Positions 1 through 18,120 of a stretch of 18,120 bases of DNA are shown here, in pieces. A program made the position numbers and the translations under genes. The DNA is taken from the NCBI GenBank assembly GCA_000504605.1, contig AZHQ01000016.1, forward strand, positions 1 to 18,120. Reading direction: 5' to 3'. The notes beneath the pieces are model-generated. The model made no database searches. It was not told the origin of the DNA and saw nothing but the letters and a program-made list of their open reading frames with translations. How positions within the stretch are numbered: position 1 is the first letter of the stretch; each line of letters begins with the position of its first letter. Source of the DNA: an alpha proteobacterium SCGC AAA288-E13 (lineage in GTDB: Bacteria; Pseudomonadota; Alphaproteobacteria; Pelagibacterales; Pelagibacteraceae).

Positions 1-214
1 AGCTTCTAAATCAAAACTAAAAAATATTTTAGAGATAAATAATGAACCACTCGTTTCTTCTGATTTTAATCATAACTCTCACTCTGCTATAGTAGACCTT
101 GCGTTAACAAAGGTCATAGAAAACAAAATGGCAAAAGTTTCTGCTTGGTATGATAACGAATGGGGTTTTGCATCTAGAATGTGTGATTTGGCAAATTATT
201 TTGGCAAGATTTAA
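1..214 (+). CDS. gap: Glyceraldehyde-3-phosphate dehydrogenase, C-terminal part (5' end outside window)
   Basis: Reading frame open from base 2 to a TAA at 212-214, about 70 residues, entering from the left edge. It carries the GAPDH C-terminal signature [12 protein letters not shown] (the family usually has WYDNEWGYS.R), preceded by a stretch resembling the end of the catalytic domain, including [19 protein letters not shown] interconverts glyceraldehyde-3-phosphate and 1,3-bisphosphoglycerate with NAD(P). The catalytic cysteine and cofactor domain lie outside the window, so cofactor type cannot be judged. It ends 6 bases before pgk, the next enzyme of the pathway, supporting a gap-pgk-fba operon. 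Confidence 0.93.
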
Positions 215-220
215 TACACT

Positions 221-1414: not shown

Positions 1415-1421
1415 AATATTC

Positions 1422-2441: not shown

Positions 2442-2447
2442 TTAAAA

Positions 2448-3056: not shown

Positions 3057-3059
3057 AAA

Positions 3060-3623: not shown

Positions 3624-4414
3624 TGAAAGTAATTTCTGCAAACATTAATGTAATAATAATGGCATGTGAAAAAGCTTCTAAGACATTAATCAGAGATTTT
3701 GGAGAAATTGAAAAATTACAAGTTTCAGTTAAAGGACCTTCTGATTTTGTATCAAGTGCGGACAAAAAAGTTGAAAAAACATTAATCAGTGAATTAAAAA
3801 AATCAAGACCAGATTATTCTATTCTTAGTGAAGAAATAGGGGAAATTAAATCTGAAAATTCCGAATATAGGTGGATAATTGATCCTATTGATGGAACATT
3901 AAATTTTTTACATGGTATTCCACATTTTGCAATCTCTGTAGCTTTAGAAAAAAAAAATGAAATAATATGCGGTGTAATTTATGATCCCATAAAAAATGAA
4001 ATGTTTCTAGCAGAAAAAGAAAAAGGAGCTTATTTAAATAATCAAAGAATAAGGGTATCAAGTAGAAAAAAAATAAAGGACTGCATGATATTTACAGGAG
4101 GTCCTGCTTTTAAATCTAATGAAAAAGAATTAAGTTTGGATGAATATAGAAAAATCTCAAATTTATTACCTTCTCCTTTAAGAAAAATGGGAAGTGCAGC
4201 ACTTGACATGGCTTATGTAGCTGCAGGAAGAGCTGACGGTTTTTTTCAAAGAAATTTAAATTACTGGGATATTGCAGCTGGAATAATAATTGTCAAAGAA
4301 GCTGGTGGTTGCATAACTGATTATTATGGAAATTTAGATTATGTAAATAAAAGGAATATTCTTGTGACAAATTCCTTTATAAATGAGGATTTAGTTAATC
4401 TAATAAATAATTAA
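3623..4414 (+). CDS. suhB: Inositol-1-monophosphatase family phosphatase
   Basis: 263 residues, the usual length for the Mg-dependent, Li-sensitive inositol-monophosphatase superfamily. The metal-binding set is complete: EE at 70-71 within SEEIGE, DPIDGT (87-92) followed by LNFLHGIPHFAISVAL, and the C-terminal WDIAAG (215-220) followed by KEAGG. These ligate the two or three Mg ions that drive phosphate-ester hydrolysis. In bacteria members act on inositol phosphate, PAP(S) or fructose-1,6-bisphosphate, or work with NusG in rRNA antitermination as SuhB. Adjacent translation genes fit a SuhB label, while the upstream aldolase makes fructose-bisphosphatase activity worth considering. The start ATG overlaps the efp stop codon. 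Confidence 0.9.
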   Translation: MKVISANINVIIMACEKASKTLIRDFGEIEKLQVSVKGPSDFVSSADKKVEKTLISELKKSRPDYSILSEEIGEIKSENSEYRWIIDPIDGTLNFLHGIPHFAISVALEKKNEIICGVIYDPIKNEMFLAEKEKGAYLNNQRIRVSSRKKIKDCMIFTGGPAFKSNEKELSLDEYRKISNLLPSPLRKMGSAALDMAYVAAGRADGFFQRNLNYWDIAAGIIIVKEAGGCITDYYGNLDYVNKRNILVTNSFINEDLVNLINN

Positions 4415-4470
4415 AATTGTAAGTTTTATTTATTTTACTAAAATCTTTTGCTATAAAACTTCATAAAATT

Positions 4471-4698
4471 ATGAAAAAAAAAATACATCCTGATTATCAC
4501 AAGATTAAGGTTGAAATGACTGATGGAAGTCAGTTTGAAACCAGATCAACTTGGGGCAAAGAAGGAGATATACTTAAATTAGACATAGATCCAAAATCTC
4601 ACTCTGCATGGATTGGTGGAAAGCAAAAAATCTTGGACAAGGGCAGAGTAGGTAAATTTAATAAAAAATTTCAAAATTTTAAATCATTTTTTAAATGA
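4471..4698 (+). CDS. rpmE: 50S ribosomal protein L31 (zinc-free type)
   Basis: 75 residues beginning [10 protein letters not shown], with the family segments [36 protein letters not shown] and [13 protein letters not shown]31 bridges the large subunit and the small-subunit head. The CxxC zinc-ribbon cysteines of the C+ type are absent, so this is the zinc-independent form. A 56-base A/T-rich spacer separates it from suhB, so it may have its own promoter, though no convincing -35/-10 pair could be chosen. The stop codon overlaps the start of the next gene (ATGA). Confidence 0.95.
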
Positions 4699-5276
4699 GA
4701 AATATTCCATTAATGCCAAAAGCTACGGCTGTATGGTTAGTTGAAAATACTTCATTATCATTTAAACAAATTGCAAATTTTTGTAATTTACATGAAGTGG
4801 AAGTTCAAGGTATTGCAGATGGAGAAGTAGCCAAAGGAATTAAGGCTTATAATCCTATTATAGCCAGTCAACTTACTAGAGAAGAAATCGAGCTTTCATC
4901 AAAAGATATATACAGACCATTGCAACTTCTTAAAAAAGAACTTGATATTTCAAAAAAAGAGAGGAAAAAACCTAAATATACACCTCTTTCAAAAAGGCAG
5001 GATAGACCTGATGCGATTCTTTGGTTAATTAAAAACCATCCGAAATTATTGGATACACAAATTGCTAGATTGATTGGAACAACCAAAAACACAGTTGTAT
5101 CTATAAAAAAAAGAACTTATTGGAACTTTAATAATTTATCTGCGAAAGATCCTATTGCGATAAATCTTTGTTCGCAACTTGATTTAGAAAATGCTTTGGA
5201 GAAAGCAAAAAAAAAAATTAAAAGAGAAGAAAAAAAAATTGAAAAAGAAAAAAAAGTAGTCGAATTGGAATCATAA
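4695..5276 (+). CDS. trcR: TrcR-type cell-cycle transcriptional regulator (DUF1013)
   Basis: 193 residues. The N-terminal segment [20 protein letters not shown] followed by [18 protein letters not shown] is the signature of the alphaproteobacterial DUF1013 family, whose Caulobacter member is TrcR. A first helix-turn-helix-like region (residues 5-40) is followed by a second, [20 protein letters not shown] around 103-122 with GTTKNTV after it, which looks like another DNA-binding helix pair. The last 30 residues are a highly charged K/E coiled-coil tail. It overlaps rpmE by four bases and runs into a small ORF and rpsU, so it is embedded in a translation operon. DNA targets are not evident from sequence. 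Confidence 0.88.
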
Positions 5277-5386
5277 TGGATAAAAAATTCAATTGGAATA
5301 CTATAAAATTTTGTAGTGATACATTTAAAGAATTTAAGTGGACAAAAAAAATTAAAAGTGTTAATGAAATCAATTTTTGGAGGTAG
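5276..5386 (+). CDS. Small ORF of 36 codons between trcR and rpsU
   Basis: An ATG at 5276-5278 overlaps the trcR stop (TAATG), and the frame runs 36 codons to a TAG at 5384-5386, filling the whole space before rpsU. The predicted peptide starts [10 protein letters not shown] and ends NEINFWR; it is basic and aromatic-rich, with no signal peptide or membrane segment. Its last codons, TGG-AGG, provide the GGAGG ribosome-binding site of rpsU, so ribosomes finishing here would be placed to start S21. I do not recognise the peptide. It could be a real small protein, a leader peptide for coupling, or chance in an A/T-rich spacer; the exact fit at both ends favours translation. Confidence 0.5.
   Translation: MDKKFNWNTIKFCSDTFKEFKWTKKIKSVNEINFWR
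5379..5383 (+). promoter_or_regulatory. GGAGG ribosome-binding site deciding the rpsU start
   Basis: A full GGAGG lies at 5379-5383, rare in this window where most genes lack a clear Shine-Dalgarno. It lies inside the last codons of the small upstream ORF. The best-spaced codon after it in the S21 frame is ATT at 5389 (5-base spacer); the TTG at 5377 lies upstream of, and partly within, the site and so cannot use it. Confidence 0.6.
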
Positions 5387-5388
5387 TT

Positions 5389-5583
5389 ATTAAAATAGAA
5401 GTTAAAGATAATAATGTTGAACAAGCTTTAAGAATTTTAAAAAGAAAACTTCAAAGAGAAGGTTTCTTCAAAATTATTAAATTAAAAAATACTTACGAAA
5501 AACCCTCCGAAAAGAAAAAAAGGATTAAGCTAGAAAATATAAAAAGAGCAAAAAAAATCCAGAAAATGAGGAATCGAATTTAA
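5389..5583 (+). CDS. rpsU: 30S ribosomal protein S21, probable ATT start
   Basis: 64 residues from the ATT at 5389: the product would begin MKIEVKDNNVEQALRILKRK, which aligns without gaps to the usual alphaproteobacterial N terminus MQVxVRDNNVDQALR. Further family segments are LQREGFFK, YEKPSEKKKR and a basic tail KIQKMRNRI. S21 sits in the small-subunit platform near the anti-Shine-Dalgarno region. An in-frame TGA at 5365 rules out a longer gene; the only standard alternative is TTG at 5377, which adds four residues and lacks a usable ribosome-binding site. The gene follows the 36-codon ORF and precedes the initiator tRNA by six bases. Confidence 0.88.
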   Translation: MKIEVKDNNVEQALRILKRKLQREGFFKIIKLKNTYEKPSEKKKRIKLENIKRAKKIQKMRNRI

Positions 5584-5589
5584 TTTTAT

Positions 5590-5666
<77 letters not shown>

Positions 5667-5726
5667 ATTAAGACGCTATTTATTTTAGTTTTCTCCTGTT
5701 AGATAAATTTTTGAAATATTTTTGAC

Positions 5727-5758
5727 GCTCTGGTGACGTCAGCGGAGTTACTTTTTTC
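5727..5758 (+). terminator. Possible Rho-independent terminator after rpsU/tRNA-fMet
   Basis: A nearly palindromic 20-base core at 5728-5747, centred on TGACGTCA, can fold as an 8-pair stem with one G-G mismatch, one G-T pair and an ACGT loop. It is followed by TTAC and six T residues (5752-5757). Its position fits the end of the plus-strand translation operon, and it also lies just past the stop of the minus-strand gene. Folding energy was not computed. Confidence 0.4.
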
Positions 5759-5760
5759 AT

Positions 5761-6162
5761 TTAAAATTTTTTATCAACTTTTTCTTTTGGTAGCTCTCTT
5801 TTATTAATTTTTTCACAGTTTAAAACTAAATCTTTAGTTTCTTCTTTCTTAAATAAATCTACAAATATTGATGCTAAAGATGGTGTTATTATAATAGTTC
5901 CCACTTCCCTATTAATTTTTATGTTATCCCAGATTGCAGTAACATAACGTTCTCCATATTTAGCCTTAGACCGATTTCTAAATTCAGAATTTATTGGATC
6001 ATAATTGCTCCAAATATAACGTTTATCAAAAGCAAAATATAAAATTTCTTTAGAATTTTGATTGTATGGTTCACATTTTAAATACGTTTTAATACTGAAT
6101 GAATATTTAAATAGAAATAACAGCCCTAAAACCAGAAACACGTATAGAGATAGTTTTTTCAT
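5761..6162 (-). CDS. Small exported or membrane-anchored hypothetical protein
   Basis: 133 residues starting MKKLSLYVFLVLGLLFLFKY, a short basic N terminus followed by about 14 hydrophobic residues, which is a signal peptide or single membrane anchor. No obvious AxA cleavage site follows, so anchoring is plausible. The rest is soluble and mixed-charge, with two cysteines (in LKCEPY and VLNCEKI) that could pair in the periplasm, and a lysine-rich tail. I recognise no domain. The first 12 residues closely match the leader of the MORN protein on the same strand at 10965-11600. It is divergent from trpB, and the 90-base spacer between them is A/T-rich with no confident promoter. Confidence 0.75.
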   Translation of the reverse strand: MKKLSLYVFLVLGLLFLFKYSFSIKTYLKCEPYNQNSKEILYFAFDKRYIWSNYDPINSEFRNRSKAKYGERYVTAIWDNIKINREVGTIIITPSLASIFVDLFKKEETKDLVLNCEKINKRELPKEKVDKKF

Positions 6163-6252
6163 TTATTTTAGATTAAATACAATATAAAGAATATATGAAA
6201 TTATATTTTATTGTTGATTTTTTTCAGTTATGTAGTCAAAATATAAATTAAA

Positions 6253-7614
6253 ATGACCGATGTAACCAAATTTTTATTAGAGGAAAGTAAATTACCTAAA
6301 GCCTGGTATAATATCTCTGCCGATCTCCCTAAACCATTAGCGCCGCCACTCCATCCTGGTACAGGTAAACCGATTGGTCCAGATGATCTATCACCTTTAT
6401 TTCCTATGGCTCTAATTGGACAAGAAGTATCTCAAGAAAGAGAAATTGAAATTCCTGAACCAATTAGAAATATATATAAACAATGGAGACCTTCACCATT
6501 GTTTAGAGCAAAAAGACTTGAAGCAACTTTAGATACACCGGCAAAAATTTATTACAAATACGAAGGAGTAAGTCCCACAGGAAGTCATAAACCTAATACA
6601 GCTGTTGCTCAAGCATTTTATAATAAAGAAGAGGGTACTAAAAAAATCATAACAGAAACTGGTGCAGGACAATGGGGAAGTTCACTTGCTTTTGCTTGTT
6701 CACTTTTTAAAATAGATCTTGATGTCTACATGGTCAAAGTCAGTTTTGAACAAAAACCATATAGAAAGATGTTAATGCAAACATATGGAGCAAGATGTGT
6801 AGCAAGTCCTTCAAACGAAACTAAAACAGGAAAGGCAATTCTTAAAAAAGATCCAAATAACACTGGTAGTCTCGGAATAGCCATATCAGAAGCTGTTGAA
6901 ATGGCTGCACAAAAAGATGACACAAAATATTCTCTTGGAAGCGTTTTAAACCATGTATTAATGCATCAAACCGTAGTTGGTAATGAAGCGATGATACAAA
7001 TGGAAATGGCTGGTGATTATCCTGACATATTAATTGGTTGTACGGGCGGTGGTAGTAATTTCTCGGGATTAGTTTTTCCATTTATTGGCAAAAAATTTCG
7101 TGACAATCAAAATGTAAAAGTAATTGCATGCGAACCAAGATCTTGCCCTTCTTTAACAAAAGGCAAATATGTTTACGATTTTGGAGATACTGGTAATCTT
7201 ACACCTTTGGTCAAGATGCATACCTTGGGTTCGTCATTTATACCTCCTGCTACGCATTCTGGAGGTTTAAGATATCACGGTATGGCTCCAATGGTTAGTC
7301 ATTTAAAAGAATTAGGAGTTATTGAAGCAAAAGCTTTTGGACAAAAAGAATGTTTTGATGCCGGTGTAAAATTTGCAAATGTTGAAGGTATTGTTCCAGC
7401 ACCTGAAGCAACACATGCAATTAAAGGTGCAATAGATGCTGCAATTGAATGTAAAAAGAATGGCAAATCAAAAACTATTCTTTTCAACTTATGTGGGCAC
7501 GGTCATTTTGATATGGAAGCTTACTCTGATTATTTTGAGAATAAACTTGCAGAAGACGTTTATAATGAAGCTGAAGTAAATAAGGCCCTAGAAGCTTTAC
7601 CTAAGATAGCGTAG
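6253..7614 (+). CDS. trpB: TrpB2-type tryptophan synthase beta-like PLP enzyme
   Basis: 453 residues, longer than canonical TrpB1 (about 400) and with the extended N terminus (ADLPKPLAPPLHPGTGKPIG) of the TrpB2 group (TIGR01415). PLP site GSHKPNTA places the Schiff-base lysine at K113; ETGAGQWG (135-142) contains the catalytic glutamate region; GCTGGGSN (262-269) is the cofactor-phosphate loop. TrpB condenses indole with an activated serine. No trpA or other trp gene is adjacent; instead DUF1015, serC and serA follow after 25 bases. Certain TrpB2 enzymes use O-phosphoserine rather than serine, and SerC makes that compound, so this may be a phosphoserine-dependent, TrpA-independent enzyme; that assignment is inference. 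Confidence 0.9.
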   Translation: MTDVTKFLLEESKLPKAWYNISADLPKPLAPPLHPGTGKPIGPDDLSPLFPMALIGQEVSQEREIEIPEPIRNIYKQWRPSPLFRAKRLEATLDTPAKIYYKYEGVSPTGSHKPNTAVAQAFYNKEEGTKKIITETGAGQWGSSLAFACSLFKIDLDVYMVKVSFEQKPYRKMLMQTYGARCVASPSNETKTGKAILKKDPNNTGSLGIAISEAVEMAAQKDDTKYSLGSVLNHVLMHQTVVGNEAMIQMEMAGDYPDILIGCTGGGSNFSGLVFPFIGKKFRDNQNVKVIACEPRSCPSLTKGKYVYDFGDTGNLTPLVKMHTLGSSFIPPATHSGGLRYHGMAPMVSHLKELGVIEAKAFGQKECFDAGVKFANVEGIVPAPEATHAIKGAIDAAIECKKNGKSKTILFNLCGHGHFDMEAYSDYFENKLAEDVYNEAEVNKALEALPKIA

Positions 7615-7639
7615 TAAAATTTTTTATTTATAGTTTATT

Positions 7640-8869
7640 ATGTATTTTATAAATCCATTCAGGGGTTTACGGCCCAATGAAGAAAAAGCTTCGTCGGTAT
7701 CTATCCCTAGTACAGATCATTTATCTGAAGAGATAATTACAAATCATAAAAAAAATAACCCATGGAGTTATTTAAATATTTTTAATCCAGATTCTAAAAA
7801 TTCAAGTTCTCAAAATGAAATATTTACTAAATCAAAAGAACAATTTGATTTGATGAAAAAAAATTCAATTTTAATGAAAGATAATGTTAAATCTTTTTAT
7901 ATTTATAAAATTTCAAACAAAAATCACAATCAAGTTGGAATAGTTGGTGCAGTAAAATTGTCCGACTATGACAATCTACATATTCGTGGACATGAAGAAA
8001 TTTATTTTGAAAGGTCGCAGAAAAGATTTGACCAAATATATAATTTAAATGCTCAAATAGGACCTATTTATGTAATTTATCCCGATGACATTAAATTAAC
8101 TAAGTTAATCGAGGAACAAATTACTTTAAAACCTAAATATTCTTTTGGAGCATTAGATGGGTGCCAGCATGAACTTTGGATTATAAATGAACAAAATACT
8201 GTCCTTAAAATAAGCGAGATATTTAATAAAATAAATCGAATCTACATTGCGGATGGTCATCATCGAATTAAGGCATTGTCAAAACTGTCGGAAATTAGAA
8301 AACATCAAAACCCAAACCACACAGGAAAAGAACCATATAATTATTTTATGGTAGCCATATTTCCAAAAAGCCAAGTACGTATACTTGACTATAATAGGTT
8401 AATAAAAGATTTGTACGGTTATTCTGCCAATGATTTTATCAAGCAGGTTAAAAAAAATTTTTTTGTAGAAAAACAAAATTCTTTATATAAGCCAAATAAA
8501 TCTAAATCATTTGGAATGTATTTAGATAAAAATTGGTATTCAATTAAATTAAAAATAAGACCAGAAGAAAATTTATTTCATATTATTAATTTAGATATAA
8601 ATTTATTACATTATTATTTACTCGAGCCAATCCTGGATATAGGAGATCCAAGATATGATAAGAGGATTGATTTTATTGCAGGCTTTCATGGTTTAGAATC
8701 AATTGAAAGAAAAGTAGATTCTGGTGAAGCTAGCGTAGGTTTTTCTTTATTTGCAACACAAATTGAAGATGTTATAAATTTTGCTGACAAAAAATTAACT
8801 ATGCCACCAAAATCAACATGGTTTGATCCAAAACCTTTAGACGGTTTAATATCATACGATTTTGAATAA
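7640..8869 (+). CDS. DUF1015 family protein linked to serine biosynthesis genes
   Basis: 409 residues, the family's usual length. It starts with the typical INPFRGLRPN (counterpart of pfrglRp) and holds ILIADGHHR-like IYIADGHHRIKAL, with DGHHR at 205-209, the most conserved family segment, followed by YNYFMVAIFPKSQVRILDYNRL. No signal peptide or membrane segment is seen, so it should be cytosolic. The family has no firmly established reaction that I can cite for this gene, but members are commonly found beside serA and serC, as here. The DGHHR element recalls the ParB/sulfiredoxin-like fold that includes free-serine kinases (SerK, SbnI); a role in phosphoserine metabolism is a hypothesis. It ends two bases before serC. 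Confidence 0.85.
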   Translation: MYFINPFRGLRPNEEKASSVSIPSTDHLSEEIITNHKKNNPWSYLNIFNPDSKNSSSQNEIFTKSKEQFDLMKKNSILMKDNVKSFYIYKISNKNHNQVGIVGAVKLSDYDNLHIRGHEEIYFERSQKRFDQIYNLNAQIGPIYVIYPDDIKLTKLIEEQITLKPKYSFGALDGCQHELWIINEQNTVLKISEIFNKINRIYIADGHHRIKALSKLSEIRKHQNPNHTGKEPYNYFMVAIFPKSQVRILDYNRLIKDLYGYSANDFIKQVKKNFFVEKQNSLYKPNKSKSFGMYLDKNWYSIKLKIRPEENLFHIINLDINLLHYYLLEPILDIGDPRYDKRIDFIAGFHGLESIERKVDSGEASVGFSLFATQIEDVINFADKKLTMPPKSTWFDPKPLDGLISYDFE

Positions 8870-8871
8870 TT

Positions 8872-10032
8872 ATGACATTAATTAAGCCATCAACTAAACC
8901 TTCAAATTCAAATTTTTCTAGTGGTCCTTGTGCTAAACGACCAGGTTGGAACTTTAATGTTTTAAAAAATACTCCTGTTGGTAGATCACATAGATCAAAA
9001 GAATGTAAAAATAAACTTAATGAGGCAATTGTTAAATCAAAACAAGTTTTAAAATTACCGGATTCGTATACTTTGGCCATAATGGCTGGATCCAATACTG
9101 GTGCTTTAGAAGCTGCCATGTGGTCTCTTTTGGGTTGCAAAGGTATTGATGTTCTGGCCTGGGAAAATTTTGGAAAAGATTGGATAATTGATGTATTGGA
9201 ACAATTAAAAATTGAAAATGTAAATAGTTATGTAGCTGATTACGGTAAACTTCCTGATTTAAATAAAATAAATTTTAAAAACGACGTAATTTTTACATGG
9301 AACGGTACAACTTCGGGTGTTCGAGTTCCTGATGCAAAATGGATACCAGATAATAGAGAAGGTTTAATAATTAGTGATGCGACCTCGGGTATTTTTGCCA
9401 TGGATATAGACTTTAACAAGCTTGATGTAATCACCTGGTCTTGGCAAAAGGTTTTAGGAGGAGAGGCTGCTCATGGAATGTTAGCATTATCACCTCGTGC
9501 AATAAAAAGATTAGAAACGTATGTTCCCAAATGGCCAATTCCTAAATTATTCAGATTAGCAAATAAAAAAAAGTTAATTAAGGGTATTTTTGAGGGCGCT
9601 ACAATAAATACACCATCAATGATTTGTGTTGAAGATGTAATAGATGCGTTAAATTGGGTAGAGTCTGTGGGTGGAACAGGTGAATTAACAAAAATATCAA
9701 ACGAAAATCTTAAAATTGTTGAAAATTGGGTTAATGGTAGTGATTGGATTAAGTTTATGTGTGAAGATAAAAACACAAGATCTTCAACAAGCATTACACT
9801 TCTAATCAAAGATGAGTGGTTTAATAAATTTAGCGAAGAAGAACAAAGAAATGTAATTAAGAAAATAGTTTCAAAACTTGACAAAGAAGGTATAGCCAAA
9901 GACATTAATGGTTATCCTAAAGCACCTCCTAGTTTAAGATTATGGGGTGGAGCAACAGTTCAAAATAATGATATGAAAGCATTATTACCATGGATTGACT
10001 GGGCATATAATTCTATAAAAAATAATGCCTAA
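8872..10032 (+). CDS. serC: Phosphoserine aminotransferase (SerC, TIGR01365-like)
   Basis: 386 residues, class V aminotransferase fold. SerC converts 3-phosphohydroxypyruvate and glutamate to O-phosphoserine and 2-oxoglutarate in the cytosol. Seen: N-terminal NFSSGPCAKRPGW, VGRSHRS, the cofactor-stacking region MAGSNTGALEAAMWS, WNGTTSG, ISDATSGIFAMDI with the PLP-binding aspartate, and TWSWQKVLGGE with the Schiff-base lysine at K193. The pattern matches the alphaproteobacterial/Methanosarcina subgroup rather than the E. coli type. It is two bases after the DUF1015 gene and overlaps serA by eight bases, so the two serine enzymes are probably translated together. Confidence 0.94.
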   Translation: MTLIKPSTKPSNSNFSSGPCAKRPGWNFNVLKNTPVGRSHRSKECKNKLNEAIVKSKQVLKLPDSYTLAIMAGSNTGALEAAMWSLLGCKGIDVLAWENFGKDWIIDVLEQLKIENVNSYVADYGKLPDLNKINFKNDVIFTWNGTTSGVRVPDAKWIPDNREGLIISDATSGIFAMDIDFNKLDVITWSWQKVLGGEAAHGMLALSPRAIKRLETYVPKWPIPKLFRLANKKKLIKGIFEGATINTPSMICVEDVIDALNWVESVGGTGELTKISNENLKIVENWVNGSDWIKFMCEDKNTRSSTSITLLIKDEWFNKFSEEEQRNVIKKIVSKLDKEGIAKDINGYPKAPPSLRLWGGATVQNNDMKALLPWIDWAYNSIKNNA

Positions 10033-10960
10033 AGTTTTAATTTCAGATTCAATGAACAAAGTTGCTCAAAAAATATTTGAAAAAAATAAAATTTCAGTTG
10101 ATGTAAAAACTGGTTTATCTGAAGAAGAAATTATAAAAATCATTTCTGAATACGATGGTATGGTTGTTAGATCAGCTACAAAAGTAACAAAGAATATAAT
10201 TTTGGCAGCTAAAAAATTAAAAGTCATAGGTAGAGCTGGCGCAGGAGTTGATAATATTGACGTACCTACTGCAAAAGAAAACAATATGATTGTTATGAAT
10301 ACACCAGGTGGAAATTCTAATGCCACAGCAGAACATGCATTTGCATTAATAATGTCAGTATTGAGAAGAATTCCTTTTGCAAATGAAACTACTCATAAAG
10401 GACAGTGGGAGAAAAAAAATATTAAAGGAGCAGAACTTTCAAAAAAAACTCTTGGAATAATAGGTTTTGGAAATGTAGGAGTTAGATTAAGTTATTTGGT
10501 TAAAGGTTTTGATATGAATATTTTGGTTAACTCTAAGTCATTAGAATCAAGAAAAAAAGATTTTCCCCATGTTAAAGATGTTAGTTTTGATGAGTTAATT
10601 AGCAATAGTGATATTATAAGTTTTCATTGTAAAGCTGCTGCTGACGGTAAACCTTTAATAAGCAAAGAACATTATAAAAAAATGAAACCTTCAACTTATA
10701 TAATTAATGCCGCACGTGGTAATATAGTTGATGAAAATGATTTAAACGAAGCTTTGAATGAAAATTTGATTGCTGGGGCTGCAATAGATGTTTATTCAAA
10801 AGAGCCCGCTAAAGAAAATGTTTTATTTAACAACCCAAAAGCAATATTAACTCCTCATATAGCAGCATCAACTATAGAAGCTTCAATAGTAGTCGCTGAA
10901 ATGGTAGCTAAACAAATTAGTAACTTTTTATTAAAAGGTGTTAAAATTAACACAGTATAA
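10025..10960 (+). CDS. serA: D-3-phosphoglycerate dehydrogenase, short form without ACT domain
   Basis: 311 residues: a catalytic and nucleotide-binding domain pair only, against 400-530 for forms with ACT or extra regulatory domains. It oxidises 3-phosphoglycerate to 3-phosphohydroxypyruvate, the first step of serine synthesis. Seen: GRAGAGVDNIDV, the Rossmann loop GFGNVG (147-152), NAARGNIVDE with the substrate arginine, AAIDVYSKEPA with the catalytic glutamate, and TPHIAAST with the catalytic histidine. The second-strand acidic residue expected for NAD is not obvious; the segment reads ILVNSKS. Lack of an ACT domain implies no serine feedback by the classical route. It overlaps serC by eight bases and ends four bases from the convergent MORN gene. 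Confidence 0.93.
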   Translation: MPKVLISDSMNKVAQKIFEKNKISVDVKTGLSEEEIIKIISEYDGMVVRSATKVTKNIILAAKKLKVIGRAGAGVDNIDVPTAKENNMIVMNTPGGNSNATAEHAFALIMSVLRRIPFANETTHKGQWEKKNIKGAELSKKTLGIIGFGNVGVRLSYLVKGFDMNILVNSKSLESRKKDFPHVKDVSFDELISNSDIISFHCKAAADGKPLISKEHYKKMKPSTYIINAARGNIVDENDLNEALNENLIAGAAIDVYSKEPAKENVLFNNPKAILTPHIAASTIEASIVVAEMVAKQISNFLLKGVKINTV

Positions 10961-10964
10961 TTTG

Positions 10965-11600
10965 TTATTTTTTCTTAATTAATTTATCCTTTTTCCAAAC
11001 GCCTTCTTCAATTTTTCCGTCTGCTTGAGTAAAGGTTCCTTGTCCATGTCGTTTACCCTTTTTCCATTCTCCAACGTATTTGTCTTTATTGATATATGTG
11101 TAAGTTCCAAATCCATCACGCTCACTTAGGTTATCAGGTTTGTAATATTTATCTTTTTTCCACTCTCCAACATATTTGTCTCCGTTAGAATAAATGTAAG
11201 TACCTTTTCCATGATATTTATGCTTTTTCCATTCTCCGACGTATTTGTCGCCGTTAGCATATGTATATGTTCCTTGTCCATGTCGTTTATGATGTTTATA
11301 TTGCCCAACATATTCTCTACCCTGATGCCTAAAGATTCCATATCCATTAAATTCTCCTTTTAAAAATTCACCAACATATTTTTGACCGTCAGGGCCCATC
11401 GCAGTGCCATGGCAATTTGTCCATTTTCTCATCTTGTTAAAATGTTTTCTTGAATATTCTAAAATATTTCTATCACTTCCTTCACATTCGGGTAACGAAC
11501 TTTGTGTTAGTGCTGTGTTACAAAAAATTAAAACTAAAAAAGTGTATAGAGATAATTTCTTTATCAAAGATATTTTTTTTATTAAACTCAGATTTTTCAT
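10965..11600 (-). CDS. Exported MORN-repeat protein
   Basis: 211 residues. The N terminus has a duplicated short motif (SLIKK, ISLIKK) and then the hydrophobic leader LSLYTFLVLIFCNTALTQ, a signal peptide with likely cleavage around ALTQ-S, so it should act in the periplasm or at the membrane. A short cysteine-containing segment (residues 38-62) precedes five to six MORN repeats of about 23 residues with core YVGEWKKxKxHGxGTYTY. One unit carries a nine-residue insertion (KPDNLSERD). MORN repeats form extended beta-hairpin sheets used for protein or lipid contact; no catalytic domain is present. It is convergent with serA and followed upstream by the epimerase genes on the same strand. The molecular role is unknown. 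Confidence 0.88.
   Translation of the reverse strand: MKNLSLIKKISLIKKLSLYTFLVLIFCNTALTQSSLPECEGSDRNILEYSRKHFNKMRKWTNCHGTAMGPDGQKYVGEFLKGEFNGYGIFRHQGREYVGQYKHHKRHGQGTYTYANGDKYVGEWKKHKYHGKGTYIYSNGDKYVGEWKKDKYYKPDNLSERDGFGTYTYINKDKYVGEWKKGKRHGQGTFTQADGKIEEGVWKKDKLIKKK
11031..11345 (-). repeat. Direct DNA repeats encoding the MORN units
   Basis: Near-identical blocks (such as TTTCCATTCTCCAACGTATT near 11061, 11157 and 11227) recur at 69 bases, or at 96 bases where the nine-codon insertion lies. The block GTTCCTTGTCCATGTCGTTT occurs identically near 11034 and 11270. The spacing equals one 23-residue MORN unit, so copy number could change by recombination or slippage. Confidence 0.8.
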
Positions 11601-11606
11601 AGAAAG

Positions 11607-12323
11607 TTACTTTATTTTAAGAATTTTTTTTAACTTTTCTATGTTGATAGAAGAATTAATAGGCATTTTTATTTTTTTATTTTTTTTCAAAAATATCTTT
11701 TTAACTTTTGTATTTTCTATTTTAGCAAAATTGTATACCGACTGACTCTTGCCTCCTACATTCAATATTCCTTTTATATGAAGCAATTTTAATAATATTT
11801 TTGCCACTTCTTCATGATACATAAAACTATTTCTGACATCATAAAATGCTGCTTTGTGAACAAATGGTTTTTCTGTCATGCATAATCTTAATATCAATGA
11901 ATTTTTGTATAATTGAACAGCACATTCTCCGCCAAGTTTCGACCAGGCATAATTATTTACAGGTAACAAGCTATCAGATTCCATATAGTTTCCCTTTGTG
12001 CCTGGATAAACATAACTCGTAGAAAAATAAATAAGTTTAATATTTTTTTCTGCACATGCTTTGGTAACATTACAAGTTCCAATGATATTCAAATTTATGC
12101 TTTCTTTAATTTTACGGTCGTGAATATTCATCGGTCTGGATAATCCAGCAAGATGAATAACAAAATTTGGTTTTTTAAATTTTATGTATTTTTGAATACT
12201 TCTGAATTTTGTAATATCCAAAGTTTTTTTGTTGGGAAAAAGAATCTCATAATTTGTTTTTAATTTTTTAAGAACGGTTCCGAATCTTCCTGTGCCACCT
12301 GTAACCAAAATTATTTTTTGCAT
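11607..12323 (-). CDS. RmlD-like NAD(P)-dependent sugar reductase (SDR)
   Basis: 238 residues, extended short-chain dehydrogenase of the RmlD (dTDP-4-dehydrorhamnose reductase) type but shorter than the usual 280-300. Seen: GGTGRFG cofactor loop (9-15), LDIT at the second strand, FVIHLAGLSRP, STSYVYPG with the active-site serine/threonine region, and the catalytic YxxxK pair Y125/K129 in NNYAWSK. The substrate-binding half is reduced. Likely job: reduction of a 4-keto-6-deoxy nucleotide sugar, final step in making an activated deoxy sugar; the exact sugar cannot be told. It starts nine bases downstream of the methyltransferase remnant on the same strand and ends six bases before the MORN gene. 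Confidence 0.78.
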   Translation of the reverse strand: MQKIILVTGGTGRFGTVLKKLKTNYEILFPNKKTLDITKFRSIQKYIKFKKPNFVIHLAGLSRPMNIHDRKIKESINLNIIGTCNVTKACAEKNIKLIYFSTSYVYPGTKGNYMESDSLLPVNNYAWSKLGGECAVQLYKNSLILRLCMTEKPFVHKAAFYDVRNSFMYHEEVAKILLKLLHIKGILNVGGKSQSVYNFAKIENTKVKKIFLKKNKKIKMPINSSINIEKLKKILKIK

Positions 12324-12332
12324 AATTAATAT

Positions 12333-12437
12333 CTAAATGCCACGTGTAAAATTCATTTTTAAAAAACTACTAGCTGGAGACATCTTTCCAAATAACATGA
12401 AAGGTTTAATGATCTGATTTGTAACCTTACATTTCAT
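12333..12437 (-). pseudogene. N-terminal remnant of a sugar C-methyltransferase
   Basis: A 34-codon frame on the minus strand starting ATGAAATGTAAG, whose ATG overlaps the 3' end of the upstream epimerase gene, and ending in TAG at 12333-12335. The peptide contains CKVTNQIIKPFMLFGKMS, which aligns without gaps to CRFCNQDIKSIISFGKMP at the N terminus of the intact methyltransferase at 15676-16917 (shared C, NQ, IK, FGKM, then A and F). Homology stops after about 25 residues. I infer that a methyltransferase gene once sat here in the epimerase operon and was lost by deletion, leaving only its coupled start. The chance-ORF alternative is weak given the ungapped match. Confidence 0.55.
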
Positions 12438-13365
12438 TTTTTAAATGTCGTAACTTATCTAATGTCTCAGAAATTTCATTTTTTATATCTGAATTAAATT
12501 TAAAATTAGTATTCAAAAATTTTTTATTTGAAACCTCAAATGAAAGTTGATTCATAATTTCATGTTCCACAAATTCTATTGTAACTTCTAGTTTTTGTTT
12601 TATTATTTCAATAATTTCTCTAACTTTCATATTATGAGATACCAAATTAAACGTTTCATTATTAATTAAATTATGTTTTACAATATGGCATATTGCCAAA
12701 TTTAAATCAGATAGTCCCAGATAGGGTCTTTTTTGTTCGTATGCTGTTTTCCATATAGTCAAAGGTTTACCAATAGATGCCTGATAACAAAATTTGTTAA
12801 CAGCTGTATGAAATCTTATTCCGGGAGCAAAACCATAAATTGTTCCAAGCCTTAAAATTAAATATTTTTTTTTAATTTTGTTAAAGACAGTTTTGATTAA
12901 TTTTTCTTCTTCAAGTTTAACATCTGCATAGGGGCTTTGAGGATTTAATTCACTTTCATTACAATTCTCATCAACAAGATTAGATTGGGAACCATAAACA
13001 CTTGTAGATGAAGCAAATAATAATTTTGAATTATTATTATTTGCATATTCAATAATTTTTTTTGTTGAATTAAGATTATTCGAATAAAATTCATCTTTAA
13101 ATTTTGCGCTTTGCGCAGCATCTGTTTTAGCAGCAAGATGTATTGTTAAATCTGAATCGGGAATATCTGCAATAGAACATTTGGTTAAATCAAGATGTAA
13201 AAATTTATAATTGCTTTCTTTAGGAAGTGAAAAAAGTGAACAATACCTGTTGGTAGACATATTATCCAAAATATATATTTTTATATTTGGCAACAATATG
13301 TGTAAATTTCTTATGAGATATGAACCTATATGTCCAGTCCCGCCTGTTATAATAATTCTTTTCAT
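12427..13365 (-). CDS. NAD-dependent epimerase/dehydratase (nucleotide-sugar SDR)
   Basis: 312 residues from the ATG at 13363-13365. The frame stays open 34 codons further upstream, but those codons lie antisense to rfbA beyond the inverted-repeat boundary, so they are not part of the gene. Seen: GGTGHIG NAD loop (8-14), LDN at the second strand, IHLAAKTDAA, SSTSVYG (119-125), and YxxxK catalytic pair Y146/K150 in SPYADVK, followed by LRLGTIYG. The pattern fits GalE/UDP-glucose-4-epimerase relatives acting on NDP-sugars; substrate unknown. Its first 27 codons and 14 upstream bases are duplicated exactly, inverted, at the right edge of the window. Confidence 0.88.
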   Translation of the reverse strand: MKRIIITGGTGHIGSYLIRNLHILLPNIKIYILDNMSTNRYCSLFSLPKESNYKFLHLDLTKCSIADIPDSDLTIHLAAKTDAAQSAKFKDEFYSNNLNSTKKIIEYANNNNSKLLFASSTSVYGSQSNLVDENCNESELNPQSPYADVKLEEEKLIKTVFNKIKKKYLILRLGTIYGFAPGIRFHTAVNKFCYQASIGKPLTIWKTAYEQKRPYLGLSDLNLAICHIVKHNLINNETFNLVSHNMKVREIIEIIKQKLEVTIEFVEHEIMNQLSFEVSNKKFLNTNFKFNSDIKNEISETLDKLRHLKNEM

Positions 13366-13379
13366 ATAATTTATATTTA
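13285..13379. repeat. Inverted repeat, left copy (95 bp, identical to 18026-18120)
   Basis: Every base of this segment is the reverse complement of 18026-18120. It covers the first 27 codons of the minus-strand epimerase gene and 14 bases of its leader. Identity stops abruptly at 13380. The right copy reaches the window edge, so the true repeat may be much longer on its far side. Confidence 0.97.
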
Positions 13380-13643
13380 AAAAATAATAGATTAAATGTA
13401 GAAATAATTGACAAAAAAAATCATTGGATTGACGCAGGTAGCCCAGAAAAAATCTTTGAAGCATCAAAACTGATCGAATCTATTGAAAAACGAAAGAAAG
13501 CATATATAGGTTTTCCAGAAATAGCAGCATTAAAAAAAAGATATATAACAATAAATAATTTTACAAAATTGATTAGAAATTACAAAGGTAATCACTATGG
13601 TAGGATTTTGAATACTTTTTTATCAAAAAATTTTATTAATTAA
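13380..13643 (+). pseudogene. rfbA: Glucose-1-phosphate thymidylyltransferase, C-terminal fragment only
   Basis: An open frame of 87 codons to a TAA at 13641-13643 with no start of its own. It reads KNNRLNVEII, then NHWIDAGSPEKIFEASKLIE, ending HYGRILNTFL and a short tail. This matches the RfbA C terminus, where families show YL..g.L.Ve, WLDTGT, lleAs.fi.tie.R and YG.YLl. RfbA makes dTDP-glucose from glucose-1-phosphate and dTTP; about 200 N-terminal residues, including the nucleotide-binding site, are missing. Homology begins exactly at the inverted-repeat boundary, so the gene was cut there by a rearrangement or a chimeric join. If chimeric, an intact rfbA heads this operon in the real genome. 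Confidence 0.85.
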
Positions 13644-13683
13644 TTATTGGTGTCTTTGGGGTATTATTTAATTTGATTTATCT

Positions 13684-14680
13684 ATGAAAAAAATTTTAAT
13701 TACTGGTATCACTGGTTTTGTGGGCAGTCACCTTGCTGATTTTTTTATTAGTAAAGAAAAATATTAAGGTTTTTGGGTTAAGAAGATATCATCTTTCAAA
13801 AGAAGACAATATATTACACATAATCAATAAAATCGAATGGTTTGATTGTGATCTTTTGGACCCCAAAGCAATTCAAAATGTTTTAAAAAAAATAAAACCA
13901 GATATAATTTTTCATATGGCTTCACAGAGTTTTGTTAGTCCTTCATGGGATCACCCAAGTTTGTATATGGATGTAAATTATAAGATGACCGTAAATTTGT
14001 TTGAATCATGTTTGGTAAATAATATTAATCCACTGATACTCTTACCAGGAAGCGGAGAGGAATATGGTGAGATAAAAGAAAAAGAGCTTCCAATTACTGA
14101 AAAAACAATTTTAAGACCAGTTAATCCTTATGCAGTTACTAAAATAGCTCAAGATTTTATAGCTTATGTTTATTTCAGATCTTATGGGCTTAGGGTAATA
14201 CGTACAAGAGCATTTAATCACGAAGGTCCAAGACGTGATAAAGTTTTTGGTTTACCAATGTATGCATATCAAATAGCAAAAATTGAGGCAGGTTTACAAA
14301 AACCTTTAGTTTTAACCGGAGTTTTAACGGATAAAAGAAACTTAACCCATATAAAGGATATGGTCAGAGCTTACTGGCTTGCCATCAATAAATGTAAAAT
14401 TGGTGAATTATATATTATTGGCAATAATGATCAAAAATTTACTTATACATATAAACATCTTTTGGAATTATTAATTTCAAAATCAAAGGTAAGAAATATA
14501 AAACATAAGATTCACAAAAAATATATCAGACCAGTACAGGTTCCTAGGCTTATTTGTAACCCATCAAAATTTTATAAATTAACTAAATGGAAACCCAATT
14601 ATAATATTAATACGATAGTTGAAGATACTCTTAATTATTGGCGATTATATGTTAATAGAAATAAAAATTATTTAAATTAA
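13684..14680 (+). pseudogene. gmd: GDP-mannose 4,6-dehydratase-like NDP-sugar dehydratase, frameshifted
   Basis: The ATG at 13684 opens MKKILITGITGFVGSHLADF, a textbook SDR cofactor loop, but that frame ends at a TAA after 23 codons. The rest, LLVKKNIKVFGLRRYHLS onward, continues in the next frame to 14680. Removing one T from the seven-T run at 13740-13746 restores a 331-residue protein. Seen: IIFHMASQSFVSPSWDHP, GSGEEYG with the Ser-x-Glu dehydratase signature, NPYAVTK (YxxxK), AFNHEGPRR as in GDP-mannose dehydratases, and NLTHIKDMVRAYW. Next to rfbA, fdtA and rfbC it may instead serve as the dTDP-glucose 4,6-dehydratase, since no classical RfbB is visible. Frameshift may be a sequencing indel or real. 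Confidence 0.82.
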
Positions 14681-14704
14681 TTTTTGATAAGTTATATATA
14701 ATTC

Positions 14705-15121
14705 ATGTTTTCACTTAAAGATGTATATTTGATTAAATTCAAAACATATTTGAAAGGAAATGAACTTTTAACTGACTATACAAGTAAAAAAAATATTCCT
14801 TTCAATTTAAAAAGAGTTTTTTTAACAGGCAATGTTTCAGAAAAGTCAAAAAGAGGAAGTCATGCGCATAAAAGAACTAGCCAAATTTTTATTTGTCTTT
14901 ATGGAAAAATAAATATTAGATGTTTTGATGGAAAAAAGACTAAATTATTTAAATTAAAAAATCAAAGTTTAGGAATATATATCCCCCCGACAATTTGGTA
15001 TGACACTTTATATGAAGGTTCAAAAAATTCTATTATGGTGTTAACAAATACAAAATATTCTAAAAGAGATTATATTTTAACGAAAAAAAAATACTTAGAA
15101 TTTAGAAGAAAAAATCAGTGA
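14705..15121 (+). CDS. fdtA: FdtA/WxcM-like sugar 3,4-ketoisomerase
   Basis: 138 residues forming a single cupin (RmlC-like jelly roll). Seen: KRGSHAHKRTSQIFICLYGK with the paired active-site histidines H53 and H55, GKINIRCFDGKK, and GIYIPPTIWYDTLYEGS followed by SIMVLTNTKYSKRDYI. These are the hallmarks of the FdtA/QdtA/WxcM family, which moves the keto group of dTDP-4-keto-6-deoxyglucose from C4 to C3, preparing it for amination. A DegT aminotransferase at the end of the operon would be the natural partner. Its TGA stop overlaps the GTG start of the next gene (GTGA). Length is normal for the family. Confidence 0.88.
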   Translation: MFSLKDVYLIKFKTYLKGNELLTDYTSKKNIPFNLKRVFLTGNVSEKSKRGSHAHKRTSQIFICLYGKINIRCFDGKKTKLFKLKNQSLGIYIPPTIWYDTLYEGSKNSIMVLTNTKYSKRDYILTKKKYLEFRRKNQ

Positions 15122-15679
15122 AAGTATTAAATACAATAATTAATGGTTTAAAGATTATCAAACCAAAAATATTTAGAGATAAAAGAGGATATTTTTTTGA
15201 AAGTTTTAATGTAAAAAAATATAAAAAACATAATTTTAGATAATCATTTTGTTCAAGATGACCACTCCTTTTCAAAAAAAAATGTACTAAGAGGTATACA
15301 TTTTCAACATAAAAAACCACAAAATCAACTTTTATATTTAGTTGAGGGAAAAATATTTATTGTTTTTGTAGATTTAAGACCTAAGTCAAAATCTTTTAAA
15401 AAGCAGTATTCATTGATATTAAATTCAAAAAATCACATGCAAATTTTTCAACCCGCTGGCGTTGGCTCGGGGTATTATGTTTTGTCAAAACAATCACATT
15501 TAATTTATAAAGTTTCTGAACTTTTTGATAAAAAAAATGAAAGTGGAATTTTATGGAATGATAAAATGTTAAATATAAAATGGCCCTGCAAGTTTCCTAA
15601 ATTGAGTGATAATGACAAAAAAAATGCCAGGTTAAAGGATATTAATTTATATAAATATAGAGACTTATTAAAATTGTGA
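15118..15679 (+). pseudogene. rfbC: dTDP-4-dehydrorhamnose 3,5-epimerase-like (RfbC), frameshifted
   Basis: The GTG at 15118 opens MKVLNTIINGLKIIKPKIFR and then DKRGYFFESFNVKK, the RfbC N terminus, but stops at TAA 15241-15243. The frame one base later carries LDNHFVQDDHSFSKKNVLRG, IHFQ and the rest of the cupin to TGA 15677-15679. One surplus A in the runs at 15213-15228 explains the break; corrected length is 186 residues. Retained relative to Salmonella RmlC: the His of LRGxHFQ, the Tyr of IYK and the Asp of LWND. Changed: the substrate lysine (GKL becomes NQL) and the AHG histidine (becomes GSG). This suggests altered specificity, perhaps a single-position epimerase. It shares GTGA overlaps with both neighbours. 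Confidence 0.82.
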
Positions 15680-16917
15680 TTTTACGCACCAATAATTGTA
15701 GATTTTGTAATCAAGATATTAAAAGCATAATATCTTTTGGAAAAATGCCAATAGCGAATGGATTTATTGATAAAAAAGATTTGGACAGTGAATATTTTTT
15801 TAATTTAGAAGCAGCTTTTTGCACTAATTGTTCTTTATTTCAACTAATTGAAATGCCTGACCCAAAAATATTGTTCAATCAAAATTATGCCTATCATTCA
15901 GGACAGTCTAAATCTATGCAAAGTCACTTTAAGGATATTGCAAAGATGCTTATCAATAAATATAATTTAAAGGTAAATCAGCTCTGTGTCGAAATTGGTA
16001 ATAATGATGGGGGTATTGTTGAGTATTTAAGTGATCTTGGATACAATCATCTTGGAGTAGATCCATCTACCAACGTTTCTAATATTGCCAAAAGCAAAGG
16101 TATTAACGTACTTAATGATTATTTTAGCTTTGACGTTGCTAAAAAAATTTCAAAAGATTATAAAAAAGCTGATTTTATTTTGGCAGCAAATGCACTTGCC
16201 CATATTCCTGATTTGCAATCGGTTTTTTCAGGAATCGAGAATCTTTTGTCAGATGATGGCATTTTTATAACAGAAGACCCTTATCTAATCGATGTTTTTA
16301 CAAAAAATTCATATGATCAAATTTATGACGAACATGTTTATATTTTTTCATTAACCTCAATGCAAAATATTTGTAGTAAATTTGGTTTAGAATTGTTTGA
16401 TGTGGAGCATATTGATACATCCGGGGGAAGCTTAAGATATTTTATTGCAAAAAAAGGCGTTTATAACAAAACTAAAAATTATAATTTTTTCTTAAATTAC
16501 GAAAAAAAATTCAATTTGTTGAATAATAGAATTTACGTTGATTTTAATAAGAGCTGTAAAAAATCAAAAGAAGAACTATTAAAGCTTCTAAAAACTTTAA
16601 CAAATAAGAATAAGACAATCTGCGGGTATTCTGCTACTTCAAAAAGCACAACAATATATAACTACTGTGGAATTAGCACTGAGTACATTAAGTTTATTAC
16701 CGATACTACTCCCATTAAACAAAATAAACTATCCCCAGGAATGCATATTCCTATTTATGACTACAAGTATTTTAATGAAAATTTACCCGACTATTGTTTT
16801 TTGCTTGCTTGGAATTTAAAAGAAGAAATTTTAAATAAGGAAAAAAATAATTTTTCAACTAAAGGTAAATGGATATCACACGTACCCCATGTTCATATAT
16901 TAAATGATATACTTTAA
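15676..16917 (+). CDS. SAM-dependent NDP-sugar C-methyltransferase
   Basis: 413 residues with the three-part layout of TylC3/EvaC/NovU-type sugar C-methyltransferases. An N-terminal zinc-binding domain has cysteine pairs C8/C11 and C49/C52 and the FGKMPIANGF segment. A central SAM domain has EIGNNDGG (106-113), a GVDPS second-strand motif, and EDPYLIDVF followed by IYDEHVYIFS, with the catalytic Tyr/Glu/His cluster around 217-222. A C-terminal Rossmann-like domain has ICGYSATSKSTTIYNYCG and a TPIKQNKLSPG loop. The family adds a methyl group to C3 (sometimes C5) of a keto sugar. The GTG start at 15676 overlaps the rfbC stop, and its end overlaps the aminotransferase by 14 bases. Confidence 0.9.
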   Translation: MILRTNNCRFCNQDIKSIISFGKMPIANGFIDKKDLDSEYFFNLEAAFCTNCSLFQLIEMPDPKILFNQNYAYHSGQSKSMQSHFKDIAKMLINKYNLKVNQLCVEIGNNDGGIVEYLSDLGYNHLGVDPSTNVSNIAKSKGINVLNDYFSFDVAKKISKDYKKADFILAANALAHIPDLQSVFSGIENLLSDDGIFITEDPYLIDVFTKNSYDQIYDEHVYIFSLTSMQNICSKFGLELFDVEHIDTSGGSLRYFIAKKGVYNKTKNYNFFLNYEKKFNLLNNRIYVDFNKSCKKSKEELLKLLKTLTNKNKTICGYSATSKSTTIYNYCGISTEYIKFITDTTPIKQNKLSPGMHIPIYDYKYFNENLPDYCFLLAWNLKEEILNKEKNNFSTKGKWISHVPHVHILNDIL

Positions 16918-17986
16918 TTTTCCTAAATCTGTTTACTTAAAATATAGAGAAAAAATTAACAAAACAGTTTTAAAAGTTTTAAATAGTGGAAATTATGTAA
17001 AATCTAAAGAGCTTAACAAATTTGAAAAAAATTTTGCACAATACATCAAAACTAAATTTGCTGTAGGAGTCGGCAATGCTACCGATGCTATTTTTATAGC
17101 ACTAAAAGCACTTAATGTTGGTTATGGCGATGAAGTAATTACAGTATCACATACGGCCACCGGGACTGCTATGGGTATATTAAATACAGGTGCCAAACCA
17201 GTATTTTGTGATATAAGTGAAAGAGATTTTAATATTGATATTTCTTTCATTTCAAAAAAAATTACAAAAAAAACAAAAGCTATAGTCATAGTTCATTTAT
17301 ATGGTCAATCTTGTGAAATGAAAGATCTTTTGTATCTAGCCAAAAAAAAAGGTCTACCAGTTATAGAAGATTGTTCTCAATCAACAGGAGGAAAATACAA
17401 AAAAAGATATTTAGGTTCCCTCGGTATGTTCGGATGCTTTAGTTTTTTTCCAACAAAAAATCTTTCATGCATCGGAGATGGCGGAATGATTACAACTAAT
17501 GATTCCTTTTATTATAAAAAAATTAATTATTTACGAGAATATGGATGGAACGAAAATAGAAATGCACAATTAATTGGAATAAACTCCAGACTTGATGAAA
17601 TTCAAGCAGCTATTTTAAATGTAAAACTAAAATACTTGAACAAAGATAATAGCGAAAGAAGATCAATAGCAAATTATTACAACAAAAACATTAATAACTA
17701 TAAAATTATGAAACCCTTAGAAAAACCTAACTGTTATCATGTATATCATTTATACGTAATTAGATGTAAGAATAGGGATAAACTAATTTATGAATTAAGA
17801 AAAAAAGAAATATTTGCCGGTATTCACTATAGTAAAGCGGTTCATCAACAGCAATTATTTGACGGTAATAAAAATTATCTCCCAATCACAGATAAAATTT
17901 CAAAGGAAGTGTTATCATTACCGATTTATCCTGGTTTAAGAAAAAAATCTTTAAAAAAAGTTATTGATGTAATAAATAATTTTTAA
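16904..17986 (+). CDS. DegT/DnrJ/EryC1-family sugar aminotransferase
   Basis: 360 residues, PLP fold type I. Seen: VGVGNATDAIFIALKAL (cofactor phosphate region), VSHTATGTAMGI, VHLYGQ, VIEDCSQSTGGKYKKRYLGS with the PLP-pyridine aspartate, FSFFPTKNLSCIGDGG with the Schiff-base lysine at K185, and NSRLDEIQAAIL. These match FdtB/QdtB/DesV-like enzymes that aminate a 3-keto (or 4-keto) dTDP sugar using glutamate. With an FdtA-type isomerase three genes upstream, C3 amination is the most likely reaction. The start overlaps the methyltransferase gene by 14 bases, so the operon is tightly coupled. All catalytic residues are intact, unlike the two frameshifted neighbours. Confidence 0.92.
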   Translation: MIYFNFPKSVYLKYREKINKTVLKVLNSGNYVKSKELNKFEKNFAQYIKTKFAVGVGNATDAIFIALKALNVGYGDEVITVSHTATGTAMGILNTGAKPVFCDISERDFNIDISFISKKITKKTKAIVIVHLYGQSCEMKDLLYLAKKKGLPVIEDCSQSTGGKYKKRYLGSLGMFGCFSFFPTKNLSCIGDGGMITTNDSFYYKKINYLREYGWNENRNAQLIGINSRLDEIQAAILNVKLKYLNKDNSERRSIANYYNKNINNYKIMKPLEKPNCYHVYHLYVIRCKNRDKLIYELRKKEIFAGIHYSKAVHQQQLFDGNKNYLPITDKISKEVLSLPIYPGLRKKSLKKVIDVINNF

Positions 17987-18025
17987 TTTTAAAAAAATTT
18001 TTTTTATTGAGCAATTATTAGATTA

Positions 18026-18120
18026 TAAATATAAATTATATGAAAAGAATTATTATAACAGGCGGGACTGGACATATAGGTTCATATCTCATAAGAAATT
18101 TACACATATTGTTGCCAAAT
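18026..18120. repeat. Inverted repeat, right copy (95 bp, to window edge)
   Basis: Exact reverse complement of 13285-13379, running to the last base of the window. Upstream of 18026 the two leaders are unrelated. This copy sits naturally 39 bases after the aminotransferase and in the same direction, as expected for the next gene of that operon. Confidence 0.97.
18040..18120 (+). CDS. NAD-dependent epimerase/dehydratase, N-terminal part (runs off window)
   Basis: The ATG at 18040 opens 27 codons with the cofactor loop GGTGHIG, identical at DNA level to the start of the minus-strand epimerase at 12427-13365. Being co-directional and just 53 bases after the aminotransferase, it reads as the next gene of the sugar operon: an NDP-sugar epimerase or reductase. 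The rest is outside the window, so whether it is full length is unknown. Confidence 0.85.
   Translation, partial: MKRIIITGGTGHIGSYLIRNLHILLPN

Follow-up and report, generated by a model that had tools for sequence, protein, structure and literature searches.

Does a surface-sugar operon in a SAR11-like alphaproteobacterium really turn back on itself, or was the turn introduced after the DNA had left the cell? The question is raised by a stretch of 18,120 nucleotides (contig AZHQ01000016.1 of assembly GCA_000504605.1, alpha proteobacterium SCGC AAA288-E13; the whole stretch that we analysed, hereafter ‘the window’), whose final 95 bases, 18026-18120, form the exact reverse complement of bases 13285-13379, identical at 95/95 positions, as an earlier note on this DNA had reported. 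The inverted repeat exists in the sequence, beyond chance: a repeat finder extends the two arms to 105 nt with 97% identity (13285-13389 and 18016-18120), with 3 mismatches in the extra 10 A/T-rich bases, which leaves 95 as the exact part, and chance can be set aside since the runner-up among the 20 inverted pairs listed is only 40 nt at 73%. We propose that the repeat is very probably a fold-back chimera and not a chromosomal structure, with multiple displacement amplification (MDA) by phi29 as its most likely source; a real rearrangement in the cell is improbable.

The duplicated gene encodes an NAD-dependent epimerase/dehydratase (Pfam), complete on the left (12427-13365, minus strand) and represented on the right by its leader and first 27 codons only. 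The left arm of the repeat (13285-13379, minus strand) holds those 27 codons together with 14 leader bases and ends at the fold, 13379/13380; the right arm (18026-18120, plus strand) holds the same 14 leader bases at 18026-18039 and then the 27 codons at 18040-18120, where the window ends. Here the epimerase start (ATG at 18040) stands in its natural place, as the successor of the aminotransferase gene. Immediately across the fold lies the 3' end of rfbA (13374-13643, plus strand), 89 codons and a stop of a gene that has about 295 when complete, such that its first 70% is absent from the window, the gene being cut at the fold. This piece matches the NCBIfam model rmlA over profile positions 203-284 of 286 (E 1.2e-12, 47.5 bits); the score stays under the cut-off set for whole proteins, which is normal for a partial gene, and no Pfam match was found for it at E 0.001.

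To what order, then, does the locus correspond in the cell? A scan of a genome collection with the epimerase returned five loci, two of them close: contig CAJWDL010000001.1 of a Candidatus Pelagibacter metagenome-assembled genome (MAG), which is the nearest relative found and is called L001 below, and a contig of SCGC AAA288-G21 (L002). L001 carries the same sugar-nucleotide operon, with a complete rfbA (5568-6455, 295 amino acids) followed colinearly by the dehydratase (6496-7491), methyltransferase (7635-8876), aminotransferase (8863-9945), epimerase (10001-10939) and a second methyltransferase (10929-12128), beyond which the opposite strand carries trcR, suhB, efp and more of the core genome. 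It differs from the window in this colinearity and in its complete rfbA, in having no fdtA-rfbC pair between dehydratase and methyltransferase, and in keeping the second methyltransferase whole.

Aligned with L001, window positions 1-5668 correspond to 17881-12215, 12356-13389 to 11010-9977, 13366-14763 to 6178-7574, and 15602-18120 to 7561-10081; that is, the pieces flanking 13379/13380 align to one and the same operon in opposite directions, at 92.6-97.1% nucleotide identity. Near the fold the identities are alike: 97.1% for the epimerase with its leader (12427-13379 versus 10939-9987), 95.8% for the rfbA end (13380-13643 versus 6192-6455) and 95.7% for the aminotransferase, with the dehydratase at 92.6%. 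The right end of the window, from the aminotransferase (stop at 17986) into the epimerase start, matches the normal joint of L001 except that the gap is 53 bases here and 55 there (9945 to 10001). The sites joined at the fold lie 4,646 nt apart (13380-18025), the counterpart in L001 being 3.8 kb (6192-9986).

A distant relative (L047), a longer stretch from one of the loci of the wider sample described below, has rfbA, rmlC, methyltransferase, aminotransferase and epimerase in the same succession and orientation; an fdtA-like gene lies between its aminotransferase and epimerase genes, on the opposite strand. The order from rfbA to epimerase is read, then, from one close and one distant relative; L002, in which the epimerase (95% amino-acid identity) sits right behind another gene of the short-chain dehydrogenase/reductase type on the same strand (28% to the epimerase), neither supports nor contradicts it. 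Taking these relatives as a guide, we consider it highly likely that the locus in the cell is colinear, running rfbA, dehydratase, fdtA, rfbC, methyltransferase, aminotransferase, epimerase, methyltransferase remnant, reductase and MORN. The earlier note had preferred just this reading, with the contig folding at 13379/13380, and had called for a comparison of gene order with relatives; L001 and L047, both colinear, and the 92.6-97.1% identity to L001 on both sides of the fold bear it out. Its list of genes also holds, with the corrections that rfbA is present as its last 89 codons only and that the dehydratase and rfbC genes are each frameshifted.

The fold itself falls in a short stretch of shared sequence. 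Reading from the rfbA of L001, which stands in for this strain's own gene, the 14 leader bases ATAATTTATATTTA (13366-13379, plus strand) are common to the epimerase leader and to rfbA (L001 6178-6191), after which the window leader and the L001 rfbA sequences diverge; the first two codons of the rfbA piece (Tyr, Leu) lie within these shared bases and hence within the repeat arm. Because the leader bases are themselves the microhomology, the fold can be placed anywhere within 13366-13379. The 14-mer occurs once per arm in the window; L001 has a single forward copy, in rfbA, and a single reversed copy, at the epimerase leader. Among 292,107 random inverted junctions of less than 10 kb in L001, none has at least 14 matching bases and one has at least 13; inverted 14-mer matches within 10 kb number 41 in the same contig, overlapping ones included. 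The joint was thus probably guided by the shared bases, a property compatible both with amplification and with a rearrangement in the cell. Nothing points to self-priming by a local hairpin: as single-stranded DNA, the 81 bases 13340-13420 fold worse than shuffled sequences (z 1.14, with 181/200 shuffles folding at least as well).

Joints of this form are familiar from amplified DNA. In the passages of Lasken and Stockwell 2007 (PMC1855051) that deal with MDA chimeras, 406/475 were inverted, 337/406 of these joined sites less than 10 kb apart, most were primed on 2-21 complementary bases, and chimeras arose about once per 22 kb, making the inverted join of sites closer than 10 kb through 2-21 complementary bases the main type. 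The joint at 13379/13380 resembles these phi29 products in distance, orientation and shared bases: the joined segments lie 4,646 nt apart (within the range of the published majority), and one of them is inverted with respect to the true order, which we take from L001; they share 14 bases, and the intervening stretch is skipped at the joint. Tardigrade mitogenome data are likewise described, in part of PMC13265396, as containing many palindromic reads after MDA.

We therefore propose a model for how the window came about. In whole-genome amplification, most likely MDA by phi29, a strand being extended from the MORN side across the epimerase would arrive at the epimerase leader; its displaced 3' end, terminating in ATAATTTATATTTA, could then pair with the complementary 14 bases of rfbA on a neighbouring single strand some 4.6 kb off. 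Extension of the annealed end back through the operon would yield a chimeric molecule, the reads of which would be assembled together with those of normal molecules, such that the contig passes over the chimeric joint, runs through the operon and stops at its second meeting with the epimerase start, after one 95-base K-mer.

Why exactly 95 bases? De Bruijn assemblers such as SPAdes follow the rule that contigs meeting at a branch overlap at their ends by one K-mer. To represent this we built a toy assembly graph, a de Bruijn graph with K-mers as vertices, from the colinear and fold-back molecules combined, which converge on the K-mer of the epimerase start. At K=95 it returns edges 1-13379 and 13285-18120, which are exactly the observed coordinates, and at K=55, 77 and 127 other ends. 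An exact repeat at the very end of the window, with both coordinates reproduced at K=95, is what a de Bruijn contig-end overlap would look like if window and contig end together, and 95 is probably the assembler's K; K was fitted as a single parameter, which accounts for an exact, terminal repeat of 95 bases and is no proof of K. Such values are in use, and the assembly methods quoted in PMC7065516 and PMC7490370 give SPAdes K lists of 25,55,95 for mini-metagenomes and 22,55,95 for single amplified genomes (SAGs), respectively; the single-cell assembly passages of PMC9012536 and PMC5519541 contain no K list. If the window were instead cut from a longer contig, 95 would reflect the cut position only, and the fold-back reading would be unaffected. 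The earlier note took zero divergence between the arms to mean an event either recent or artificial; a K-mer overlap left by the assembler explains it as well as a recent duplication does, or better.

Saying this, several points weigh against the fold-back reading. Short inverted repeats can cause real rearrangements in cells, and amplification is here something that we infer, not something read from a record of how the DNA was prepared; phi29 as the enzyme, 95 as the value of K and a contig end at the window end are each suppositions of the model. The assembler took the chimeric joint instead of the normal rfbA joint. Adding a stand-in for upstream rfbA to the toy graph splits its second edge into 13285-13460 and 13366-18120, which implies that the normal rfbA branch was lacking, outweighed or resolved by the assembler. 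The protocols quoted in PMC7065516 and PMC7490370, which use K up to 95, both trim 200 bp off contig ends, so that an untrimmed K-mer end misfits them. Finally, the fold, which falls inside the ranges of PMC1855051, has a shared stretch that is long by the figures given in the pertinent part of PMC4595205, where overlaps are mostly 5-8 nt and the likeliest distance is 250-300 nt, with distances extending to about 5,000 nt; 14 nt and 4.6 kb sit in the tails of both distributions.

The joint could also be an artefact made without MDA, through template switching during library preparation (by the polymerase chain reaction or by ligation) or through a join by the assembler or scaffolder via the 14 bases. 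A gap-closing step could use an overlap of 14 nt. However, a de Bruijn graph at K=95 needs reads that cross the joint, and would not by itself produce a misjoin through 14 bases alone; the inverted form and the distance of less than 10 kb are, moreover, the MDA pattern as reported in the passages on chimeras in PMC1855051. We regard such an origin as unlikely, and the artefact appears to be of the MDA kind rather than another.

A genuine and very recent inverted duplication in the cell, of the tandem-inversion type and produced by a template switch at the 14-nt inverted microhomology, would give the same joint. In bacteria such events can be set off by short inverted repeats, the assembler did keep the joint, and the window contains no normal rfbA. 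This explanation has, in our estimation, very little probability, as has its corollary, doubtful in the same degree, that a second epimerase-reductase-MORN copy lies beyond the window end. It would leave an rfbA piece without the first 70% of the gene, and the match between the arms ends where the window ends, as a K-mer overlap would.

A wider sample of relatives also speaks against a genuine duplication. Of 397 genomes drawn from the family, 25 match the epimerase at E <=1e-50. The comparison covered 20 loci from these, namely L001 and L002 (genomes G001 and G002) and 18 (L010-L027) from the 23 other matching genomes, the latter with epimerase identities of 40-55% and flanks of up to about 1.5 kb. 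None of the 20 loci has an rfbA match (E <=1e-8) adjoining the epimerase within such flanks, at a cut-off that could overlook brief remains of rfbA in the more distant genomes. In the set of 18, a second methyltransferase follows the epimerase on the same strand in 16 (not in L010 and L025), and an fdtA-like gene precedes it on the same strand, again in 16 (on the other strand in L010, none in L017).

Complete rfbA is common: the clusters P0002, P0003 and P0004 (295 amino acids) hold 10, 115 and 194 member sequences. Of 20 rfbA homologues examined (P0002-P0021), P0002-P0009 are the closest, at 85-99% identity, and each of these eight has LNNLYLKNN at the fold site; the rfbA piece shares 84-86 of its 89 residues with P0002, P0003, P0005, P0006 and P0008, the five of the eight that are in register (P0004, P0007 and P0009 being excluded from the count).

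The last explanation to be weighed is a 4.6-kb segment that inverts between the 95-bp repeats and so switches the surface-sugar operon (phase variation). Two inverted arms do flank the operon, and the region 13200-13760 contains 10 promoter-like sites, set against 4.8 (standard deviation 1.9) in shuffles. In A/T-rich DNA a match to a consensus carries little weight and is no evidence of function, and we leave this excess uninterpreted; the same scan found no terminators in 13200-13760. The arm, however, is the coding start of one epimerase and no independent repeat, and L001 has a single copy. Nor would there be a working arrangement in both orientations, as rfbA is cut in either. No recombinase was recognised among the 12 window proteins scanned (Pfam, NCBIfam), the closest approach being a sub-threshold match to a transposase-type helix-turn-helix in TrcR; the other open reading frames were read by eye. 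We hold a switch of this kind to be exceedingly improbable. The earlier statement that an invertible segment would look the same is partly right, and fails in that either orientation leaves rfbA cut and the epimerase start doubled, unlike in L001 and L047.

A real duplication or an invertible switch would require that rfbA be truncated and the start of a gene doubled, and the relatives examined show neither. The fold-back chimera accounts for the repeat, the truncated rfbA, the relatives' gene order and the microhomology without any special assumption about the organism. There is a very slim chance that the window comes from a real SAR11 sub-population with a fresh fold-back rearrangement at the 14-nt inverted microhomology, cutting rfbA; if so, the rearrangement would switch off or change the surface sugar, for example under phage pressure. 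A search of viral contigs for the exact 41-base pattern of the epimerase start returned no matches.

For users of this contig the result is a caution and not a discovery: the gene order across 13379/13380 is unfit for comparative work on SAR11 surface-sugar loci, and the apparent second epimerase start and the apparently truncated rfbA are not to be carried into such comparisons. Microhomology at a fold, together with a terminal repeat of fixed length, could serve as a signature for fold-backs in other amplified assemblies.

The remaining genes of the folded locus can be followed from the fold rightwards on the plus strand. After rfbA comes a nucleotide-sugar 4,6-dehydratase (13684-14680; Pfam), with a frameshift in the T run 13740-13746, an A/T-rich stretch that has one T more than in L001. 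It is followed by an FdtA/WxcM-like protein (14705-15121; PF05523) and an rfbC/rmlC-like 3,5-epimerase (15118-15679; PF00908 on its 3' part), which switches frame between about 15213 and 15243, again in A/T-rich sequence, as read from the three-frame translation. Both frameshifts could stem from sequencing errors where coverage was thin, or from genuine gene decay. A C-methyltransferase (15676-16917; Pfam Methyltransf_13/14, 94.4% to L001) and a DegT/DnrJ/EryC1 sugar aminotransferase (16904-17986; Pfam) complete this side.

Downstream of the complete epimerase, on the minus strand, the second methyltransferase that is complete in L001 is reduced to a remnant of 73 bases (12266-12338, 83.6% to L001 12123-12193) between epimerase and reductase. 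The RmlD-like reductase (11607-12323; PF04321) is followed by a MORN-repeat protein (10965-11600; PF02493), which marks the downstream end of the folded locus and so closes a surface-sugar locus in a SAR11-like genome. The sugar-operon genes compared (12427-17986) are nearer to L001, at 92.6-97.1%, than are the neighbouring core genes at the left of the window (221-5276), at 88.2%; judged by these identities, it is as if the operon had been exchanged between strains recently.

To the left of the locus, a plus-strand cassette (6253-10960) begins with a TrpB-like gene (NCBIfam) and continues with three further genes, which we take to be DUF1015-like, serC and serA. The serC protein has matches (E <=1e-50) in 35/397 genomes of the family, and none in G001 or G002. 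According to the part of PMC10030771 that treats serine synthesis genes, isolates of subclade I have no serABC, and some MAGs and SAGs of I/II carry it. Among six serC-bearing stretches that we compared, the four-gene cassette is present in this order in L042 and L044; in L045 its last three genes run up to the contig end, and L043, L048 and L049 are either cut short or arranged differently.

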